Below, in pieces: positions 18,896 to 41,346 of a stretch of 64,000 nucleotides of DNA. The DNA lies in contig NC_020813.1 of assembly GCF_000348725.1 (NCBI RefSeq), positions 1,712,248-1,776,247 on the forward strand, in the 5' to 3' direction. Origin of the DNA: Pseudobdellovibrio exovorus JSS (GTDB lineage Bacteria; Bdellovibrionota; Bdellovibrionia; Bdellovibrionales; Bdellovibrionaceae). The position numbers and the translations under genes were made by a program. Each line of letters begins with the position of its first letter. Positions within the stretch are counted from its first letter, which is position 1. A model generated the notes under the pieces. The model saw only the letters and a list, made by a program, of their open reading frames with translations, made no database searches and was not told where the DNA came from.

Positions 18896-21800
18896 CTATC
18901 TGATGTCAGCTAAACTTACAGAAACCATGGTTGATACACCACGCTCTTGCATTGTTACGCCGTAAAGCTTTTGTGCCACTTCCATCGTGTGTTTGTTATG
19001 TGTCACAACGATGATTTGAGAACGCTTCGCCATCTCTTTAACTAAGTCGTTAAATCTGAATACGTTTGCATCATCCAATGGCGCATCAACCTCATCCAGT
19101 AAGCAGTACGGAGACGGCTTCACAAGGAAGATCGAGAATACCAACGCCACCGCTGTCAGGGCTTTTTCACCACCCGACATCAACGTTACGTTCTGCATTT
19201 TCTTTCCTGGAGGTTTCGCAATGATCTCGATACCCATTTCGCCCTTATCTTCATCTTCTACCAGTTGAAGCATGGCTTCACCACCGCCGAATAAGACAGG
19301 GAAAACTTTTTGGAAGCGATCATTAACAAGATCAAATGTTTCTTTAAAGCGTTTCGCACAGATTTTATTGATACGATCAATAACTTTACGAAGCTGTTCT
19401 TTCGCCTCTGTCAAATCAGCATGCTGCTGAGTCAAGAAAGCATAGCGCTCTTGAGTTTCAGAGAACTCAGTGATCGCCGAAAGATTCACTTCGCCAATCT
19501 TAGCTAATTTATCTCTTAAGTCTTTTAGCTCAGCATCAGCGACCACTGGATCACCTTCGCGGCCAGCGTATTTTTCAACAACATCAGGTAAAATTAACAT
19601 GTACTTTTCACGAACTTGATCGATCAAATACTGTTCTTTCATTTTCGCTTGCTCAAGTTTCAACTGAGCATCATTCATTTTAGAAAGACGCTCATTTCTT
19701 TCACGTTGCATCGTGATCACTTTGTCTTCTAGTTCACGAATATGCGATGTTTCCATCTCGAACTGGTTTTTCACCTGCGAAACTTCAAGACGACGAGCTT
19801 CCACATCCGCCAACATACGTTCGAAATCAATCTTCGCTTGTTCAAGCGCGTACTGACCTTCTGACATTTGTGACGTGTAACCTTCTGCCTCTTCTGACAT
19901 ACGTGAAAGTTGAGATTCAAGATCGTTCACTTGTTTTTGAACCATATCTAATTGACGACTAACACCTGCATACTCTTGCGCTTTAGAGGCCGCACGTACC
20001 TGCAGATCCATCACTTCAGACTGTTGTGATTCAAAACCATCTTTCATCGAATTGTACTCAGTACTCAATTCAGCTAATGATGTTTCCAACTCTAGCTTTT
20101 GAGTTCTTGTTTCAACTAAGCGACTTTCTAGGTCTTCAATCTTTTCAGATAACTGTTCAATTTGCTCAGCTACGCGACGCACTTCTTTTTCTTGTTTTTC
20201 AACTGCATTTTGAGCTTGGTTAAACTCGACATCTGCGCGTTCGTAGTCTTTTTTCAATTCAGCAACTTTAATTTCCTGTTCAATACGACGCTGTTGCGCC
20301 CCTTCGAAGTCAGAAACCACGTTAGCTAATTGCTCTTCCACTTTTTTCAAAGCAGCCGTTGCTAAGGCTAATTTACCAGCCCATTCGTTCTTTTTGTCTG
20401 ACAACTCTTTGATTTCACGACGACGTTTTAGAACACCAGACTCCGCAGAGTCTTTAGATCCACCTGTTAATACGCCATCAGCTGACAACGTATCGCCATC
20501 CATCGTGACAAAAGTCCATCCTTTATAGTTCGGACGTAGTCTTAGAGCCGTACGAATAGAATCCACAATCGCAACGCCATCTAAAATCTCAGACACTTTG
20601 CTTTGATAGATTTCATTTGAGTTCACTACATTCTTTAACAGATCAATAACACCTGTTTCAGATTTAGGATTACCCTGTAAATGTTTGATGTAATGTCCAT
20701 CATTTGAGTAGAAGCTTGAACGACCTGAATTTTGTGACTTCAAGTGATCAACAGCTTCAACTGCTGTATCTGGTTTTTGTGACAATAACATCTGTAGTTT
20801 AGAGCCTAAAGCTGCTTCCATCGCGATTTCATAGTCCGCAGGGACTTCTACCACTTCAGAAACAGGCTTGAAGAACTCACTTACAGTTCCATCAGCATGC
20901 ATTTCTACTGACTTAGCTTTGCTCCACAACATCACTTGTTTAACACCCTCTTCGAAACCTTCGAAGTTAGCTGCTAAATTTTCTAAGCCATAAAGGCGTG
21001 ATGCCGTTTCATTTAAATTATCTTTAAAATCCTGAACCTCTACCTGCTTTTGTTGCAATTGTTCCGTTAGGATTTTTTTATTCGTTTCAAAAGCTGTCAC
21101 ATCGCTAGAAAGGTCCATTTGTAATTGGCGCTCTTGTTCTAACTGATTTAACACTTTTCTACGGCGGCCTTCAAAGTCATGCAATGTCTCGCGCAACTCA
21201 TTCAAAGTGATTTCTTCTTCTGCTTGAGAAGACTCAAGTTCAGATTTACGTCCTAAGAATGACTGTGTTTGCGCATCTAATGCCGATTCACTTTGCCCCA
21301 AAGCAATTTGCTGACGACGCTTTTCAGTCAATTCTGTATCAATTTGGCTGTAACGAGCTTGCGCCGATGAAAAGGCTTCTGATTTTAACATGGAATCCGC
21401 AGCTAGTTCTTCAGATTCAATTTTTAAAGTATCCGCTTGCTCAACAAGGAACGATAAATCACGAGCTAATAACTCATGACGAGCTTTTTGCTCGCTAAGG
21501 ATATTCCCCGTCATTTGCTCATTGCGTTTCGCTTGTTCTAACTCAAAGCGAAGCTCTTGAATTTCCATTTCTTTCTTTTGAACTGAAGTTTGGAAATTAT
21601 AAAAATCCTGTTGTTTCGCTTCGACTGCTTTTTCTTGCTCTAGAACTGACAACTTCAAAGTTTCGAGTTCTGACTGCATTGACGCTAAATTCGCCTCGCT
21701 GCCCACTTCAATAGATTGAGCTTCATCGAAAATGCGTTGGGCTTCATCAGCCGCTTGTTTCAAATTCACATATTGAGCTGAAGATAACCACAACTCTAGG

Positions 21801-22480
21801 TCTTCGATTTGAGTTTTGATATTGCGGTAGCGTTCAGCACGTTGTGCTTGTCTTTGTAAAGAATCAATTTGGCGTTTTAACTCGCCGATGATGTCTTGCA
21901 AACGCACTAAGTTCTGATCAGTTGAAATCAACTTTCTTTGCGATTCTTTTTTACGAGCTTTAAACTTAGTGATCCCCGCCGCTTCTTCGATCAACATACG
22001 GCGATCTTCTGGTTTCGCTGTGATGATTTTTCCGATCATACCTTGAGCAATGATCGAGAAACCTTTAGAGCCCGCACCCGTATCCATAAAGATCTCTTGT
22101 ACGTCTTTTAAACGAGCAGGTTCTTTATTGATAAAGTACTCACCTTCACCATTTCTGTGAAGTTTACGAGTCACCATAATTTCAGAATGTTTTAAATACT
22201 TGGCTGGGAATGGACCGCCATCGTTTTCTAACGTCAACGAAACTTCACACATTCCCAACGGAGCATAACCTTCAGCACCAGCAAAGATTACATCCGTCAT
22301 AGCGCTTGCGCGCAGATCTTTTGCGGATTGGTCACCCATAACCCACATTAAGGCATCTACTATATTAGATTTACCACAACCGTTCGGTCCAACAACACCG
22401 GTAATACCCGCATCAAACTGAATAACCGTACGATCTTTAAAAGATTTAAAACCAATAAGTTCGAGTTTTTTAATTCTCAC
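18896..22480 (-). CDS. smc: Chromosome segregation ATPase SMC
   Basis: 1194 residues. Walker A GPNGCGKSNIVDALMWVMG is near the N-terminus, with long coiled coils around a hinge (about 510-680). The C-terminal ABC signature is LMSGGEKALTA, with Walker B YCLLDEVDAPLDD. Folds and compacts chromosomes with ScpAB. The start is GTG (22480) with AAGGAG about 8 nt upstream. A 125-nt gap to holA leaves room for its own promoter. Confidence 0.98.
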   Translation of the reverse strand: MRIKKLELIGFKSFKDRTVIQFDAGITGVVGPNGCGKSNIVDALMWVMGDQSAKDLRASAMTDVIFAGAEGYAPLGMCEVSLTLENDGGPFPAKYLKHSEIMVTRKLHRNGEGEYFINKEPARLKDVQEIFMDTGAGSKGFSIIAQGMIGKIITAKPEDRRMLIEEAAGITKFKARKKESQRKLISTDQNLVRLQDIIGELKRQIDSLQRQAQRAERYRNIKTQIEDLELWLSSAQYVNLKQAADEAQRIFDEAQSIEVGSEANLASMQSELETLKLSVLEQEKAVEAKQQDFYNFQTSVQKKEMEIQELRFELEQAKRNEQMTGNILSEQKARHELLARDLSFLVEQADTLKIESEELAADSMLKSEAFSSAQARYSQIDTELTEKRRQQIALGQSESALDAQTQSFLGRKSELESSQAEEEITLNELRETLHDFEGRRRKVLNQLEQERQLQMDLSSDVTAFETNKKILTEQLQQKQVEVQDFKDNLNETASRLYGLENLAANFEGFEEGVKQVMLWSKAKSVEMHADGTVSEFFKPVSEVVEVPADYEIAMEAALGSKLQMLLSQKPDTAVEAVDHLKSQNSGRSSFYSNDGHYIKHLQGNPKSETGVIDLLKNVVNSNEIYQSKVSEILDGVAIVDSIRTALRLRPNYKGWTFVTMDGDTLSADGVLTGGSKDSAESGVLKRRREIKELSDKKNEWAGKLALATAALKKVEEQLANVVSDFEGAQQRRIEQEIKVAELKKDYERADVEFNQAQNAVEKQEKEVRRVAEQIEQLSEKIEDLESRLVETRTQKLELETSLAELSTEYNSMKDGFESQQSEVMDLQVRAASKAQEYAGVSRQLDMVQKQVNDLESQLSRMSEEAEGYTSQMSEGQYALEQAKIDFERMLADVEARRLEVSQVKNQFEMETSHIRELEDKVITMQRERNERLSKMNDAQLKLEQAKMKEQYLIDQVREKYMLILPDVVEKYAGREGDPVVADAELKDLRDKLAKIGEVNLSAITEFSETQERYAFLTQQHADLTEAKEQLRKVIDRINKICAKRFKETFDLVNDRFQKVFPVLFGGGEAMLQLVEDEDKGEMGIEIIAKPPGKKMQNVTLMSGGEKALTAVALVFSIFLVKPSPYCLLDEVDAPLDDANVFRFNDLVKEMAKRSQIIVVTHNKHTMEVAQKLYGVTMQERGVSTMVSVSLADIR

Positions 22481-28010: not shown

Positions 28011-28436
28011 TTATCCGAATATCCGCGCCACACTCAACTCAGGTAACTTACCCTGCAATTCAAATAAAGTTTTCAGTTCTGGATTCGCACGATCGGGATC
28101 TTCAAGGCGTTGATAGTTGGAAAGATTCCGAATTCCCAATAGCTCCATCATCGCTTTCTGAGTCATCTTTCTTTTCAAGCGAGTTTGACGAAGCTCCATC
28201 GCAAAGGCCACACTCGGTGAAACCTGAACAGCCACGATACTTCTTCCTTTCAAATCAGCTTGGGGCTCTGGAAATAAAACGTTCGAGTTCTCGGGCTCAG
28301 CTAAGTGTAGATCCAAAGCTTCTTGCATATTCGTAACCAACTCTTCTTTGCTCTCTGCCTGAGTTAGACAGTCTAGCTCGATACACTCAGCCCAAAATCC
28401 TTTTTTATCTTTATGAACTTTAAAGTGATATTTCAT
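28011..28436 (-). CDS. hicB: HicB antitoxin
   Basis: 141 residues. The N-terminal HicB fold (KYHFKVHKDKKGFWAECIELDCLTQAES..., residues ~1-60) is a partly degraded RNase H-like domain. The C-terminal half (~85-141) has an HTH-like MELRQTRLKRKMTQKAMMELLG that would bind the operator. The start is MKYHF at 28436, overlapping the hicA stop by ATGA. The longer reading frame upstream is hicA in another frame. Neutralises HicA and represses the operon. Confidence 0.85.
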   Translation of the reverse strand: MKYHFKVHKDKKGFWAECIELDCLTQAESKEELVTNMQEALDLHLAEPENSNVLFPEPQADLKGRSIVAVQVSPSVAFAMELRQTRLKRKMTQKAMMELLGIRNLSNYQRLEDPDRANPELKTLFELQGKLPELSVARIFG

Positions 28437-28615
28437 AAATTGCCTTTCAATCTTTTCCTCAATTTCTGCTCTAAACCTTTTTTCAGTTCTCGATGCAGCG
28501 GAATAGTCTCGCGCCGTATACCTTTTCCAACTGTGACATGACTGCCACTTTGCCGCAGCTCTTGCCATCCATGCTCTTTATATAGTTTGAGCATCTCTTT
28601 ACCACTTATCGGCAT
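28433..28615 (-). CDS. hicA: HicA mRNA interferase toxin
   Basis: 60 residues, starting at MPISGKEM. The family core is present: GW-x5-QSGSHVTVGK with the catalytic His in GSH, followed by IPLHRELKKG. HicA toxins cut mRNA when free of HicB. Gene order hicA-hicB and the 4-nt overlap are usual. An ATG 21 nt upstream (28636) is possible but would overlap the -10 element. Confidence 0.85.
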   Translation of the reverse strand: MPISGKEMLKLYKEHGWQELRQSGSHVTVGKGIRRETIPLHRELKKGLEQKLRKRLKGNL

Positions 28616-28635
28616 ATTCGACCTAACCTTTATCA

Positions 28636-28664
28636 TAATACCACTTAAAAGTGGTATTTGCAAT
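28636..28664 (-). promoter_or_regulatory. hicAB promoter
   Basis: On the minus strand: -35 TTGCAA (28664-28659), 17-nt spacer, -10 TATTAT (28641-28636), predicted start about 28629, some 14 nt before hicA. Confidence 0.7.
28638..28659. promoter_or_regulatory. hicAB operator palindrome
   Basis: A perfect 22-nt inverted repeat, AATACCACTT-aa-AAGTGGTATT. It fills the promoter spacer and overlaps the -10, the expected place for HicB autorepression. Confidence 0.75.
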
Positions 28665-30745: not shown

Positions 30746-30773
30746 TTGTCACAAAATTTAAGCTCTCTTCGTA
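30746..30773 (+). promoter_or_regulatory. ECF-type promoter element before the copper P-ATPase
   Basis: TTGTCACAA (30746-30754), 15 nt, CGTA (30770-30773). The same element precedes the ECF sigma gene at 40204 and, with a 16-nt spacer, the divergent operon at 40178. It lies 35 nt before the ATPase start codon. Confidence 0.6.
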
Positions 30774-30807: not shown

Positions 30808-33174
30808 ATGAGCCATTCAGATCATTCACACCATCATCACTCGCCACCATCGCCAACTTCTGAAAAAGATCCCGTATGTGGGATGACTGTTGAACCCGCA
30901 ACAGCTAAGGGTGGAAGTACGCGCTACAAAGAAAAAAATTTCTACTTCTGTAACCCTAAATGCAAAACTAAATTTGAAGCTGAACCTGAAAAGTACATTT
31001 CCTCAAACACCAATGAAGCGAAGAAAGAGCTAACAACAGCTGAATTGGAATCTATCTACACCTGCCCGATGCATCCAGAAATTCGTCAGAAAGGGCCCGG
31101 TAGTTGTCCTATCTGTGGGATGGCTTTAGAGCCAGAAGAAATTTCTTTGGAGGATGTTGAAAATCCCGAGCTCATTGATTTTACACGACGATTAAAAGTC
31201 AGTATTCCATTGGCAGTTCCTCTTTTACTGTTAGCGATGTCGGACCTGATTCCCGGTCAACCTGTACAACACGCCATCCCCGCATGGTTAAATGCGATAA
31301 TACAGTTTATCTTGGCGACTCCTGTTGTACTTTGGGCAGGACAACCTTTTTTCGAAAGAGGCTGGGCCTCGGTTAAGTCAAAAAACTTCAATATGTTCAC
31401 CTTGATTGCTCTCGGCACCGGTGTTGCTTACCTCTTTAGTTTGGTCGGAACTTTCATTCCTTCTCTTATTCCTGAAAGTTTAAAAATGCACGGAGGCCTT
31501 CCCCCACTTTACTATGAAGCGTCCGCAGTTATTATTACGCTAGTTCTATTGGGACAAGTCCTTGAACTACGTGCTCGCAACCAAACCGGAAATGCAATTC
31601 GTGCACTGCTAGGATTAGCCCCAAAAACTGCACGTAGAATAAAAGCCGATGGTACAGAAGAAGATATTCCCGTTGAACATATTCACTTAGGAAACCTTCT
31701 ACGTGTCAGACCCGGAGAAAAAATTCCTGTGGACGGCACAATCGTAGAAGGTCGAAGCCTTGTTGATGAATCCATGATCACTGGGGAACCCATTCCTTTA
31801 GAAAAACAAATCGGTTCACATGTAACGGGAGCCACTGTCAATGGTACAGGAAGCTTTGTCATGAAAGCTACCAAAGTGGGCTCGGATACACTGTTGTCTC
31901 AAATTGTAAAAATGGTATCCCAAGCACAAAGAAGCCGAGCTCCTATTCAAAAATTAGCCGACACAGTGTCGGGCTATTTTGTTCCAGCGGTCGTTTTAAT
32001 TTCAATCGTGACTGCGCTAATTTGGTATTTTGTCGGTCCAGAGCCTAAACTGACACATGCGATTGTCAATGCCGTCGCGGTACTGATCATCGCCTGCCCG
32101 TGTGCTTTGGGGTTAGCAACTCCGATGTCGATTATGGTGGGCACAGGCAAAGGAGCCAACCTCGGTGTCTTAATTAAAAATGCAGAGGCCTTAGAGAGTT
32201 TAGAGAAGATCACCACTTTGGTTGTCGACAAAACTGGGACTTTAACATTGGGAAAACCGAAGCTAGCGCACGTCAAAACTCTAAATGGATTTGATGAAGC
32301 CACGACTTTGTCTGCTGTTGCTGCTCTTGAAAAATCTAGCGAGCATCCTTTGGCGGAAGCTATCGTCAATGGCGCAGTGGAAAAAGGATTACAAATCCAT
32401 GCGGTTAGCGATTTTGAATCTATCACCGGAATGGGTGTAAAAGGAACTGTGCAAAATCGCCTTGTACTTGTAGGTAACCGCAAACTTCTAGAAAAATTTC
32501 TAGTAGATACAACCGAACTTGTCAGCATCGCAAAAGAACTTCAAAGCACAGGTCATGGAGCTATGCTCGCCGCAATTGATGGAAAACCTGCAGCAGTTAT
32601 TGCCGTCAAAGATCCAATTAAAGAATCTGCAAAACCCGCCATTGCCTATTTTCACTCGAAAAAAGTTCAAGTGGTGATGTTAACCGGAGACAGTCGTCAT
32701 ACGGCCGAAGTGGTGGCCCGTGAAATGGGAATTGATCGCGTTGAGGCGGAAGTGCTTCCTCAACAAAAAAACGAAATCATCAAAAAGCTACAAAGTGAAG
32801 GACACATCGTGGCTATGGCCGGAGACGGGATCAATGATGCCCCCGCCTTGGCGCAAGCCAATGTCGGTGTCGCCATGGGTACAGGCACAGATGTGGCCAT
32901 TGAAAGCGCCAGTGTGACCTTAGTGAAAGGCGATCTGATTGGCATCGTTCGCGCCCACCGACTCAGCCAAGCTACCATGTCCAATATCCGTCAGAATCTA
33001 GTCTTTGCCTTTGGTTACAATATGCTCGGTGTTCCCATCGCGGCGGGCCTTCTTTACCCTGCTTTTGGTATTCTATTGAGCCCAATGCTGGCTAGTTTAG
33101 CAATGAGCCTTAGCTCTGTCTCGGTCGTGGGAAATGCCCTACGCCTTAGGAACCTTAAAATTAGGGAGCATTAA
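30808..33174 (+). CDS. copA: Copper/silver-translocating P1B-type ATPase with YHS and metal-binding N-terminal domains
   Basis: 788 residues. Order: His-rich start, YHS domain (DPVCGMTV...[11 protein letters not shown], ~20-65), heavy-metal-binding domain (YTCPMHPEI...[10 protein letters not shown], ~86-115), then the P-type core. CPC at 430-432, phosphorylation site DKTGT (D474), [13 protein letters not shown], and the Cu(I)-class final segments [11 protein letters not shown] and MSLSSVSVV. No HMA domain. Exports Cu(I), possibly Ag(I), across the inner membrane. Resembles SilP/CopA-type exporters. An ECF-like element upstream ties it to the sigma locus at 40.2 kb. Confidence 0.92.
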
Positions 33175-38180: not shown

Positions 38181-38813
38181 ATGAAAACACACAAAAGCCC
38201 CTTAATTGCACACCTCACTGAATTAGAAAAAAAAGCAGCACACCAAGAGATTACATTGAAAGATGTTGTCACTATTTTCGGTACCGATGGACACTTCGTT
38301 CTGATTTTATTTTGTATTCTTCCATTCTTACAGCCCATTCCTCTGATGGGACTTTCAACCCCTTTCGGGCTATTGATTTCACTAGTCGCTTTTTTTTACT
38401 ATCTGCAAAAACCTCCTTACTTACCTAAAAGATGGCAAAACAAAACCATCAATCACACCACCCTCTTAAAAATAGCAGAAGGAGCTGAAAAGTTTTTTAA
38501 AAAGCTCGAAAGATTCATCAAACCTCGTTTAGAGTTTCTTTTTTCTGAACCTTTTAAATCTATCAATATTATATTTATTATTTTGAATGCAATTCTATTA
38601 GCACTGCCTCTTCCCATACCTTTTTCGAATGCCATTCCAGCATGGGTGATCCTTTTGCAAGCGATTGGTCATCTTGAGCGCGATGGCGTATTAGTTCTGA
38701 TTTCCTATATACAAGCAGTGCTCAGTCTGATTTTCTTCACAACGCTTGCCTATGGATTGAAAACTGGCATCGAATTTATCGACAATTCAATGCCAACAGT
38801 CGCTGCGATTTAA
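38181..38813 (+). CDS. ExoD-like membrane protein
   Basis: 210 residues with 4 or so membrane helices (about 40-75, 135-165, 172-195). It matches the ExoD family: PFLQPIPLMGLSTPFG and LALPLPIPFSNAIPAWVILLQAIGHLERDG. ExoD is needed for exopolysaccharide production in rhizobia; the mechanism is unknown. Follows the CNNM gene by 9 nt, so co-transcribed. Overlaps the convergent gene by 4 nt. Confidence 0.88.
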   Translation: MKTHKSPLIAHLTELEKKAAHQEITLKDVVTIFGTDGHFVLILFCILPFLQPIPLMGLSTPFGLLISLVAFFYYLQKPPYLPKRWQNKTINHTTLLKIAEGAEKFFKKLERFIKPRLEFLFSEPFKSINIIFIILNAILLALPLPIPFSNAIPAWVILLQAIGHLERDGVLVLISYIQAVLSLIFFTTLAYGLKTGIEFIDNSMPTVAAI

Positions 38814-39196
38814 AACATCAAGACTGGTAAAACGTAAGCAAATAGAAAGCCTAATACAAAAACTCCAACACTCACAATGTACAAATTACGGCTTGCCTTT
38901 CTTCCCGAAATGCAAGCTTCACGTAACTTGGGATCTATTGGACATGGAGCATTTCGGTTTCGCCATAATAAGAAACCATTTAAGGCCAACATACTGCCAG
39001 CAAATATAAAAAATTTAACTTTATGTTCTGACATCCAAATTAATGCTGGAAAATTAGAGGCCATTCCGGCAAGAACAGCACCCAGTCCTAAACTCACGAG
39101 TAACGCTGGCAAAGCGCAGCACAACAATGTGCTCAGTGAACCAAACAGAGTGAAATAATTTAAAAGGGACTCTTTTATCTTCGTCATATTATTCAC
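38810..39196 (-). CDS. MerT-like inner membrane metal transporter
   Basis: 128 residues, three membrane helices (~14-45, 57-75, 100-126). The LLCCALPALL Cys pair in the first helix resembles MerT/MerC. Further Cys are at the cytoplasmic or periplasmic loop (CPIDPKLREAC). It overlaps the MerP-like gene by 4 nt. No merA, merR or merB nearby, so mercury specificity is not assumed; a broader thiophilic metal is equally likely. Confidence 0.7.
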   Translation of the reverse strand: MNNMTKIKESLLNYFTLFGSLSTLLCCALPALLVSLGLGAVLAGMASNFPALIWMSEHKVKFFIFAGSMLALNGFLLWRNRNAPCPIDPKLREACISGRKASRNLYIVSVGVFVLGFLFAYVLPVLMF

Positions 39197-39486
39197 TCTT
39201 TAAAAACAGCTTCGTAACCTGAGTCTTTTAGAAGCTCAGTAATTTTATCTTCGCTTAGGCTCTTGCCTTCTTTAAATTTGATTTTGACAAATTTCTTTTC
39301 CAGACTGACTTCGATATCTTCTACTTCTGATTGGCTTTTAAATTTTTTCTCGATCCCCTGTGCACAGAAAGCACAAACCATACCATTAACGCCTACTGTT
39401 TTGATGCGGGCTGAGTCTATCGGCGCATTCGCCTGTGCGAATGCCACTGAGCTAAAAAGCAAAGCTATTGTGATTATCTTTTTCAT
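39193..39486 (-). CDS. MerP-like periplasmic heavy-metal-binding (HMA) protein
   Basis: 97 residues. Signal peptide (~17 residues), then one HMA fold with GMVCAFCAQGIEKKF (metal site CxxC) and the typical ILKDSGYEAV-like end. Hands metal to the MerT-like permease or another acceptor. It sits between the OMP gene (8-nt gap) and the MerT-like gene (4-nt overlap), clearly one operon. Confidence 0.85.
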   Translation of the reverse strand: MKKIITIALLFSSVAFAQANAPIDSARIKTVGVNGMVCAFCAQGIEKKFKSQSEVEDIEVSLEKKFVKIKFKEGKSLSEDKITELLKDSGYEAVFKE

Positions 39487-39494
39487 AAATCCCC

Positions 39495-40124
39495 CTAAAT
39501 ATGGATCATAAAGTTAAATGTGTATCCGCCACCAAAATCAGATCCTACCTCCCACAAAACATTGCGGATGTAGAATCGCAATAGTTGAGTAGTTCCAATA
39601 GGCTTATCATTTTGTTTTGAAAATTGAGTGATAAACCAGATATTCAAATCTGTATAATCAGCTAAGAAGGGAGCAAACCCCAGTCTGACTTTAGTGCGAT
39701 GGTCATCACGCTGACCCCAAAGAGGATTCAGACGATTATCGCGGGATAAATATAAATGTTCAAATGTCGTGTAATACTTACGGCTTTCCCAATCCGCCAC
39801 CACTTCTAACATTCGCACACCATAGACATCAGAGTTATACTTTTCTGCTCCGGCCCCAGCACTGATATAAAAGTTTCCTTGAGAGTCCTCATTATTCCAT
39901 CTTTTAACTAAGTAATTAGCACGAGGTATATAGAGTTCTGACTTATCTGCCTGTAAGTACATTCCTCCAATAGCTACGCGATGACTGAGGGAGTAGTTCA
40001 ACAAGAGCTCATTCATCTGATCGGTATTGTAAGACATCAAACTCACGGCACCTTTATAAGATACAGGATGAGACCAAGCCTGCCCCCCAAGCAAAAGTAA
40101 CAATCCAAATAGCACAGATCGCAT
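39495..40124 (-). CDS. Predicted outer-membrane protein of the ECF-linked operon
   Basis: 209 residues from MRSVLF; I prefer this ATG because AGGGTG precedes it and the predicted ECF transcript starts around 40142. A GTG six codons upstream is the alternative. Signal peptide ~18 residues (cut near QAWS). The mature protein has alternating hydrophobic/polar segments rich in aromatics (YNSDVYGVRM, YYTTFEHLYLSR, WEVGSDFGGGYTFNF), typical of a beta barrel. Family unknown. First gene of the OMP-MerP-MerT-like operon. Confidence 0.65.
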   Translation of the reverse strand: MRSVLFGLLLLLGGQAWSHPVSYKGAVSLMSYNTDQMNELLLNYSLSHRVAIGGMYLQADKSELYIPRANYLVKRWNNEDSQGNFYISAGAGAEKYNSDVYGVRMLEVVADWESRKYYTTFEHLYLSRDNRLNPLWGQRDDHRTKVRLGFAPFLADYTDLNIWFITQFSKQNDKPIGTTQLLRFYIRNVLWEVGSDFGGGYTFNFMIHI

Positions 40125-40149
40125 AATCACCCTTTCTTTCACCTTGTCT

Positions 40150-40178
40150 TACGTTTAAAAGAAGATAGATTGTGACAA
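40150..40178 (-). promoter_or_regulatory. ECF-type promoter element of the OMP-MerP-MerT-like operon
   Basis: On the minus strand: TTGTCACAA (40178-40170), 16 nt, CGTA (40153-40150; extended ACGTAA). Mirrors the plus-strand element at 40204; together they form a perfect 9-bp inverted repeat 25 nt apart. Confidence 0.6.
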
Positions 40179-40203: not shown

Positions 40204-40231
40204 TTGTCACAAAGTAAGCAGCACCCACGTA
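40204..40231 (+). promoter_or_regulatory. ECF-type autoregulatory promoter element of the sigma gene
   Basis: TTGTCACAA (40204-40212), 15 nt, CGTA (40228-40231; extended ACGTAA). The AGAGGA site and GTG start follow within 20 nt. Confidence 0.6.
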
Positions 40232-40250: not shown

Positions 40251-40826
40251 GTGCACCCCAAAGGGCCAGTAACCATTAACGAGATGACCGATGAACAGCT
40301 GATGAAGCTGTATCAAAACGGAGACGAAGCTGCTTTCCAACAGCTTTACAGTCGTCATTCGTCCAAAATCTATGGGTTTATAAAAAAGCGTATTCCAAAT
40401 GAGGCAAAAGTGTCCGAGATCTATCAAGAGGTCTTCATTAAAATACACAAATCTAAGCATCGTTATAATGACAGCTTTGCCGTGCTTCCTTGGATTTTTA
40501 CTGTTACAAAGTCCGTTTTGATTGATGAAGTTCGCAAAGATAAAAAAATAGAAGGACAACATGTTATGTTCGAAGATGTTATCGCTTCTGGGCCTGAAGT
40601 GACCGCTAGCCCAATTGATACGGACTCTCTGCTTGGCCAACTGCCTTCACAGCAACAAAAGGCCCTTGAGCTTCGCTATGTTGATGACAAAACATTTAAT
40701 GAAATTGCGGCAACACTGAATATGTCCGAAAACAATGCACGACAGATTATCAGTCGTGGTATTAGACGCCTAAGACAACTGGTTAATCCTAGCGAAAAAG
40801 TAGGAGGAAATCATGACAGATCATAG
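40251..40826 (+). CDS. ECF-type RNA polymerase sigma factor
   Basis: 191 residues. Sigma-2 region ~18-90 (LYSRHSSKIYGFI, YQEVFIKIHK, LPWIFTVTKSVLIDEVRK) and sigma-4 ~130-180 (LPSQQQKALELRY, TFNEIAATLNMSENNARQIISRGIRRLRQ). Domain 3 is absent, as in ECF factors. GTG start at 40251, AGAGGA 4 nt before; ATG at 40284 is the alternative. The 14-nt overlap with the membrane protein downstream marks a sigma/anti-sigma pair. Probably drives its own promoter, the divergent operon and copA. Confidence 0.88.
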   Translation: MHPKGPVTINEMTDEQLMKLYQNGDEAAFQQLYSRHSSKIYGFIKKRIPNEAKVSEIYQEVFIKIHKSKHRYNDSFAVLPWIFTVTKSVLIDEVRKDKKIEGQHVMFEDVIASGPEVTASPIDTDSLLGQLPSQQQKALELRYVDDKTFNEIAATLNMSENNARQIISRGIRRLRQLVNPSEKVGGNHDRS

Positions 40827-41346
40827 TGATAAATGGCTTCAAGATTATCAAGATTTTCTGGATGCAGAACAAACTCCCGTTCCACCGGATCAGACCACTG
40901 CTGTTTTCAGTAAAATCAATCCTCTGCTAAAACCGAATGCCCTATTCGTGTTTTCAAAAATATTAGGTGTGCATCTGGTAACGGGATTTCTTTCTTTAGC
41001 TGTGTGCCATCAATTCGGACTTAATCCCTTCCAAACTCAATACTCTTTAGCCGATTGGTTCATGAAAGTCGGTGGTCACCACTTTTGTATGCTTGGCTGT
41101 GGATTGACATTCGTAAGCATCAGTTTGTTATTCTCAGGTTATTTCTTAACGTTGGAAGAAATAAAAGCTCTGAAAAGAACAGAGCTTTTACAAAATTTAA
41201 CTTTAGGACTTATCTCGATTGGTATCTTCCTATCCTTCGGCGTCGAAATGGCTTTAAGCATCGGAGCTTTATGGCTACTGGGTGCACTGTTAGGTGGCTT
41301 CATTGCGACCACGCTTGTGTGGAAATTTAAAAAAGCCACTGCCTAA
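40813..41346 (+). CDS. Putative membrane anti-sigma factor with Cys/His cluster
   Basis: 177 residues, no named family recognised. A ~42-residue soluble N-terminus would bind sigma. Then about four membrane helices (~43-66, 91-114, 126-147, 150-172). With the N-terminus inside, C65-H66 and H89-H90-F-C92...C96 would all lie at the outer face, a plausible metal sensor. It resembles, in logic only, the NrsF-type (DUF1109) membrane anti-sigmas. Start supported by AGGAGG 6 nt upstream, inside the sigma gene. Confidence 0.65.
   Translation: MTDHSDKWLQDYQDFLDAEQTPVPPDQTTAVFSKINPLLKPNALFVFSKILGVHLVTGFLSLAVCHQFGLNPFQTQYSLADWFMKVGGHHFCMLGCGLTFVSISLLFSGYFLTLEEIKALKRTELLQNLTLGLISIGIFLSFGVEMALSIGALWLLGALLGGFIATTLVWKFKKATA

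Follow-up and report, generated by a model that had tools for sequence, protein, structure and literature searches.

The window, by which we mean the whole 64,000-nucleotide stretch analyzed here, contains copA, an operon for an ECF sigma factor and a membrane protein, and a unit on the minus strand encoding a probable outer-membrane protein (OMP), a heavy-metal-associated (HMA) protein and a MerT-like protein. Each of the three units is preceded by a short promoter-like element:

30746 to 30773, plus strand: predicted ECF-type promoter of copA (TTGTCACAA-N15-CGTA; exact pattern and both profiles)
30808 to 33174, plus strand: copA, P1B-type copper-translocating ATPase (YHS and HMBD domains; Pfam and NCBIfam)
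38810 to 39196, minus strand: MerT-like membrane protein (alignment; CCALP within membrane segment 1, plus another pair of cysteines)
39193 to 39486, minus strand: secreted HMA protein, MerP/CopZ-like (Pfam HMA)
39495 to 40142, minus strand: secreted protein, probably of the outer membrane (open reading frame and conservation)
40150 to 40178, minus strand: predicted ECF-type promoter of the OMP-HMA-MerT-like unit (16-base spacer; relatives have the element in this position too)
40204 to 40231, plus strand: predicted ECF-type promoter of the sigma operon (TTGTCACAA-N15-CGTA; pattern, profiles and conservation)
40251 to 40826, plus strand: ECF sigma factor (sigma2 and sigma4 regions, GTG start)
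40813 to 41346, plus strand: putative membrane anti-sigma factor and metal sensor of 177 aa (four predicted membrane helices; invariant H54, C65, C92 and C96)

The product of copA scores 599 bits against TIGR01511 (cut-off 397). The sigma gene encodes a small protein of 191 aa with sigma2 and sigma4 regions only (Pfam Sigma70_r2 and Sigma70_r4; TIGR02937 at 80.9 bits, cut-off 42.9), and its own operon is preceded by the promoter common to the target genes, as in other ECF factors. In the minus-strand unit, translation of the first gene more likely begins at an ATG 18 nt into the frame from the listed GTG; the product of this gene matched no family and is probably located in the outer membrane. 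A vicinal Cys pair in the first membrane segment is a feature of MerT, and CCALP is invariant in 14 homologs of the MerT-like protein, although neither the Pfam nor the NCBIfam MerT model matched it. The HMA protein fell short of the MerP model (34.1 bits against a cut-off of 92.55). With both the MerP and MerT models unmatched, a mercury operon of the MerTP uptake type was rejected.

TTGTCACAA occurs four times in the window, at 20777 (-), 30746 (+), 40170 (-), and 40204 (+), where 1.04 copies are expected by chance and 1 of 100 shuffles reached four. The combination TGTCACAA-N14-17-CGTA occurs three times, at 30747 (+, N15), 40205 (+, N15), and 40150 (-, N16), against a chance expectation of 0.04, and none of 100 shuffles reached three. 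The spacer is thus N15 at both the copA and sigma sites and one base longer on the OMP side. CGTA ends 34 nt upstream of the copA start codon, an ATG at 30808. The first-pass annotation had reported the element right before copA with the same spacing as at the sigma gene and had found TTGTCACAA, apart from the promoter sites, only in smc; both observations hold, the copy at 20777 (-) lying within the smc open reading frame (18896-22480) and lacking CGTA. The element at 30746-30773 is very probably a promoter read by a specialized (ECF) sigma factor.

A pattern scan of the whole assembly of this organism (2,657,893 bp in one contig, C1) returned six strict matches in the 2.66-Mb genome; base composition predicts about 1.5, and a control scan with the pattern reversed gave none. 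Three of the six are the window sites and two are intragenic. Four are intergenic, each directly before genes: copA, the sigma/anti-sigma pair, the OMP-HMA-MerT-like unit, and a gene for a His-rich secreted protein. The last lies outside the window:

C1:245611-245637 (L001 1501-1527), minus strand: fourth intergenic promoter-like site (strict pattern and profile)

The part of this site that starts at the -10 element, CGTAATAGCCTATAG, is identical to its counterpart in the sigma promoter, and the site stands 20 nt upstream of a gene for a 159-aa secreted protein ending in HHH. That protein matched no Pfam or NCBIfam family; in relatives its homologs belong to copper loci and in many cases have this promoter too. 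When a profile that included the organism's own sites was used, only the His-rich, sigma, and copA sites stood above noise genome-wide (17.5-19.2 versus 10.0 bits). With a profile built from other genomes only, these three N15 sites scored 15.9, 15.7, and 15.0 bits, and the next best score in the window was 7.6 bits. Neither profile listed the N16 site upstream of the OMP genes; its candidacy as a promoter comes from the exact pattern and its conserved position. The genome-wide scan had been proposed in the first-pass annotation with many random intergenic hits as the outcome that would speak against the element, and what emerged was four intergenic sites, all before genes of this kind. On the window and genome counts and the profile from other genomes, a chance match was rejected. 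Two near-identical transposase-like copies (L238 and L239, at C1:1464454 and C1:2277679) each carry the same weak 10-bit profile match, and part of the frame at C1:2277679 reads X.

Of 40 related loci, 29 have TGTCAC-N16-18-CGTA before the sigma gene, a number that rises to 32 with a relaxed form requiring NGTCAC and CGT. In a shuffled-word control on the same 40 loci, 300 word pairs gave a mean of 0.04 and a maximum of 2. The consensus among relatives, of which Bdellovibrio sp. qaytius is among the nearest, is TGTCACAA-N15-CGTATTA, and neither the AA after TGTCAC nor the A after CGT played a part in site selection. Profile matches were present in 14 of 15 family genomes with a close sigma versus 7 of 51 others (Fisher p = 2e-8, 66 genomes), a comparison that is partly circular since some of these genomes contributed sites to the profile. 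In the Bdellovibrio-like relatives (g4) and the one relative of genus g10 examined, the sigma and partner genes are kept and the promoter was not found. Four of the Bdellovibrio-like loci (L055-L058, in G004, G009, G022, and G006) had no TGTCACAA-CGTA upstream of sigma, and in three of the four the divergent gene is H+-pyrophosphatase-like, not a copper gene. Three other loci (L242, L247, and L257, in G055, G046, and G053) have the promoter near copper-type genes and no close sigma was found in those genomes, which incomplete assemblies or a different sigma factor could explain.

The genes found beside the element in relatives point to copper. In many of them an element divergent from sigma faces either an OMP-HMA-MerT-like operon or a CusC-CusB-CusA efflux operon. 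Distant sites in relatives lie before His-rich genes, RND operons of the CusA/CzcA type, and genes for a multicopper oxidase of the copper_res_A type and a cupredoxin. The linkage of sigma gene, promoter, and copper genes is kept across the phylum (Bdellovibrionota). Since the element precedes CusCBA, multicopper oxidase, cupredoxin, and His-rich genes across Bdellovibrionota, copper is most likely the inducing signal. A search of the organism's own genome found no close CusA, only an RND protein at 32%, where G045 and G048 gave 75-80%. The first-pass annotation had joined copper export, a MerP/MerT-like route, and an OMP in one ECF-controlled metal-stress regulon. The single regulon is supported and gains a fourth unit; the cusCBA, multicopper oxidase, and cupredoxin genes of relatives indicate copper as the signal instead of mercury or metals in general.

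The second gene of the sigma operon overlaps the sigma gene, and in all loci examined the partner gene overlaps or abuts sigma. Its 177-aa product has no Pfam or NCBIfam family; members of its own family turned up in 185 of 340 genomes from the phylum, and a sequence search did not find any on plasmids. Two alignments, of 21 and 19 sequences, share the invariant residues H54, C65, Q67, F68, C92, C96, and G97. An AlphaFold2 model (pLDDT 86.7, pTM 0.75) and hydropathy together give N-terminal helices at 5-18 and 25-39 and long helices at 43-64, 79-111, 124-141, and 148-176. The PDB contained no relative by sequence search, and a PDB structure search with the model gave no match at E <= 0.001. 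Being encoded with sigma and consisting of an N-terminal part, placed on the cytoplasmic side from its charge, followed by four membrane helices, the protein has the layout of a membrane anti-sigma factor. A cytoplasmic N-terminus would place C65, C92, and C96 towards the periplasm. The protein is likely an anti-sigma factor and Cu(I) sensor.

The situation at copA is different. The element is absent directly upstream of all 29 copA homologs in the family, which rules out a conserved copA promoter, and because these homologs never carry it the copA site is without comparative support; its proposed role rests on the quality of the match and its position. In two genomes (L125 and L130) the sigma and partner genes are followed by copA in the same orientation. 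A CueR-type box is present in 13 of 30 copA upstream regions (about 40%, own excluded; 1.5% by chance), with two or three of the 13 being poor matches, and a cueR-type gene adjoins copA in eight relatives, the member tested passing the CueR equivalog cut-off. The organism's own copA upstream region has no CueR-type box, so that copA here does not have the marks of CueR control. Sequence searches of its one assembly found no CueR, and the single MerR-family protein was not matched by the CueR query. CsoR was rejected as a copA regulator, as the single CsoR/RcnR-family gene adjoins a CDF transporter and not copper genes. That gene, the only regulator of the family found (L270 4903-6176, approximately C1:263902-265175), stands beside a metal transporter of the CDF type that has a loop rich in His, and the pair reads as DmeR-DmeF-like. 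With the site missing from the copA genes of relatives, many of which carry a CueR-type box, a direct link of the regulon to copA is specific to this genome. The absence of the promoter from all 29 homologs, the CueR boxes and cueR genes of relatives, and the lack of either here suggest that in this lineage copA has probably passed from CueR to the ECF factor.

These features can be combined into a mechanism. In the resting state, the four-helix protein (40813-41346), co-transcribed with the sigma factor (40251-40826), would keep it at the inner membrane. Under copper excess the metal, probably as Cu(I) in the periplasm, would bind the invariant C65, C92, C96, and H54 and free the sigma factor, which would then start transcription at TGTCACAA-N15/16-CGTA promoters. 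Four units would be switched on in this way: the sigma operon itself, the OMP-HMA-MerT-like operon, copA, and the distant gene for the secreted His-rich protein. Their products would jointly bind envelope copper and export copper from the cytoplasm. What the analysis shows are the sequences, how rare they are and where they lie, and a linkage of sigma, promoter, and copper genes that is kept throughout the phylum; we infer the promoter activity, the anti-sigma function, the metal, and the mechanism of sensing. We consider the model as a whole, with an ECF promoter at copA, a membrane anti-sigma copper sensor, a four-unit regulon, and copA switched from CueR, to be likely and a good deal more plausible than its competitors.

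The most serious of these keeps the ECF regulon and replaces copper by silver, mercury, another soft metal, or thiol oxidation acting on the conserved cysteines. HMA and MerT-like proteins occur in mercury systems too, and NrsF of Caulobacter, a membrane anti-sigma factor with conserved Cys, answers chromium and cadmium (PMC3511200). Yet the recurrent targets are of the copper type (cusCBA, copper_res_A multicopper oxidase, cupredoxin, and copA) and the MerP model failed at 34.1 bits, so we regard a signal other than copper as unlikely, though deserving of some weight. Much less probable is a regulon confined to the sigma, OMP, and His-rich units, with the copA site a chance match and copA regulated otherwise. 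The lack of conservation before copA homologs would fit such a reading, but a match of this kind within 150 bp upstream has a probability of about 2e-5, its profile score equals that of the sigma site, and neither a CueR box nor CueR was found in this genome.

We give the least credence, and very little, to TTGTCACAA being the operator of a repressor or activator instead of the -35 element of an ECF promoter. The nonamer is near-identical on both strands, as an operator might be; elsewhere, however, the conserved unit is asymmetric, consisting of TGTCACAA and CGTA at 14-16 bp with nothing conserved before TGTCAC. Moreover, the layout is that of ECF promoters, with ECF41 using TGTCACA-n16-CGTC (PMC3426412), and profile matches concentrate in genomes with a close sigma, a partly circular comparison as given above. 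A promoter read by the ECF factor is the reading we retain.

By analogy, the system may work like other ECF/anti-sigma metal systems, and it differs in some respect from each one compared. CorE and CorE2 of Myxococcus xanthus, formerly ECF44 and now within ECF238, are likewise ECF factors over copper genes that include a P-type ATPase (PMC3107203, PMC10141476). In CorE, copper is sensed by a Cys-rich domain fused to the C-terminus of the sigma factor, and there is no anti-sigma factor; the translated sigma factor here is free of cysteine and has a membrane protein as its partner. In SigF-NrsF of Caulobacter crescentus, an ECF sigma factor is encoded with a polytopic membrane anti-sigma factor whose conserved cysteines affect release under metal stress (PMC3511200). 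NrsF has six helices, two Cys, and the DUF1109 domain, while the partner has four long helices and three Cys plus a His, and DUF1109 was not matched in 21 partner homologs. The promoters differ as well, GTAACC-N16-CGAA with chromium and cadmium for SigF and TGTCACAA-N15-CGTA with copper-type targets here. ECF41 has a near-identical promoter (PMC3426412) but a large C-terminal regulatory extension and COE targets; the matches of the 191-aa sigma factor end with sigma4. Finally, CueR-copA places the same gene family under copper control, and relatives have cueR and its box, where this genome has a predicted ECF promoter and neither CueR nor its box was found.

The literature searched yielded no paper describing an ECF factor for copper in Bdellovibrio. 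Whether an undescribed four-helix anti-sigma family senses periplasmic Cu(I) through Cys3/His, runs a phylum-wide ECF copper regulon, and captured copA is to our judgment evenly poised. CorE, the copper ECF factor of the papers found, carries its sensor on sigma; a membrane anti-sigma factor of an uncatalogued family, here the likely copper sensor, would be a separate solution. If copA was captured from CueR by the ECF factor, export of cytoplasmic copper would be commanded by an envelope signal, and the change of regulator would be a case of regulatory rewiring. One promoter code appears to be kept across a phylum that includes predatory Bdellovibrio relatives, and the system offers a testable regulon, a clean promoter rule, and four named residues as a candidate Cu(I) site.

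Elsewhere in the window, at 28011-28663 on the minus strand, lie open reading frames of 76 and 185 aa; the latter has no NCBIfam match, and the two read like a HicA-HicB toxin-antitoxin pair.
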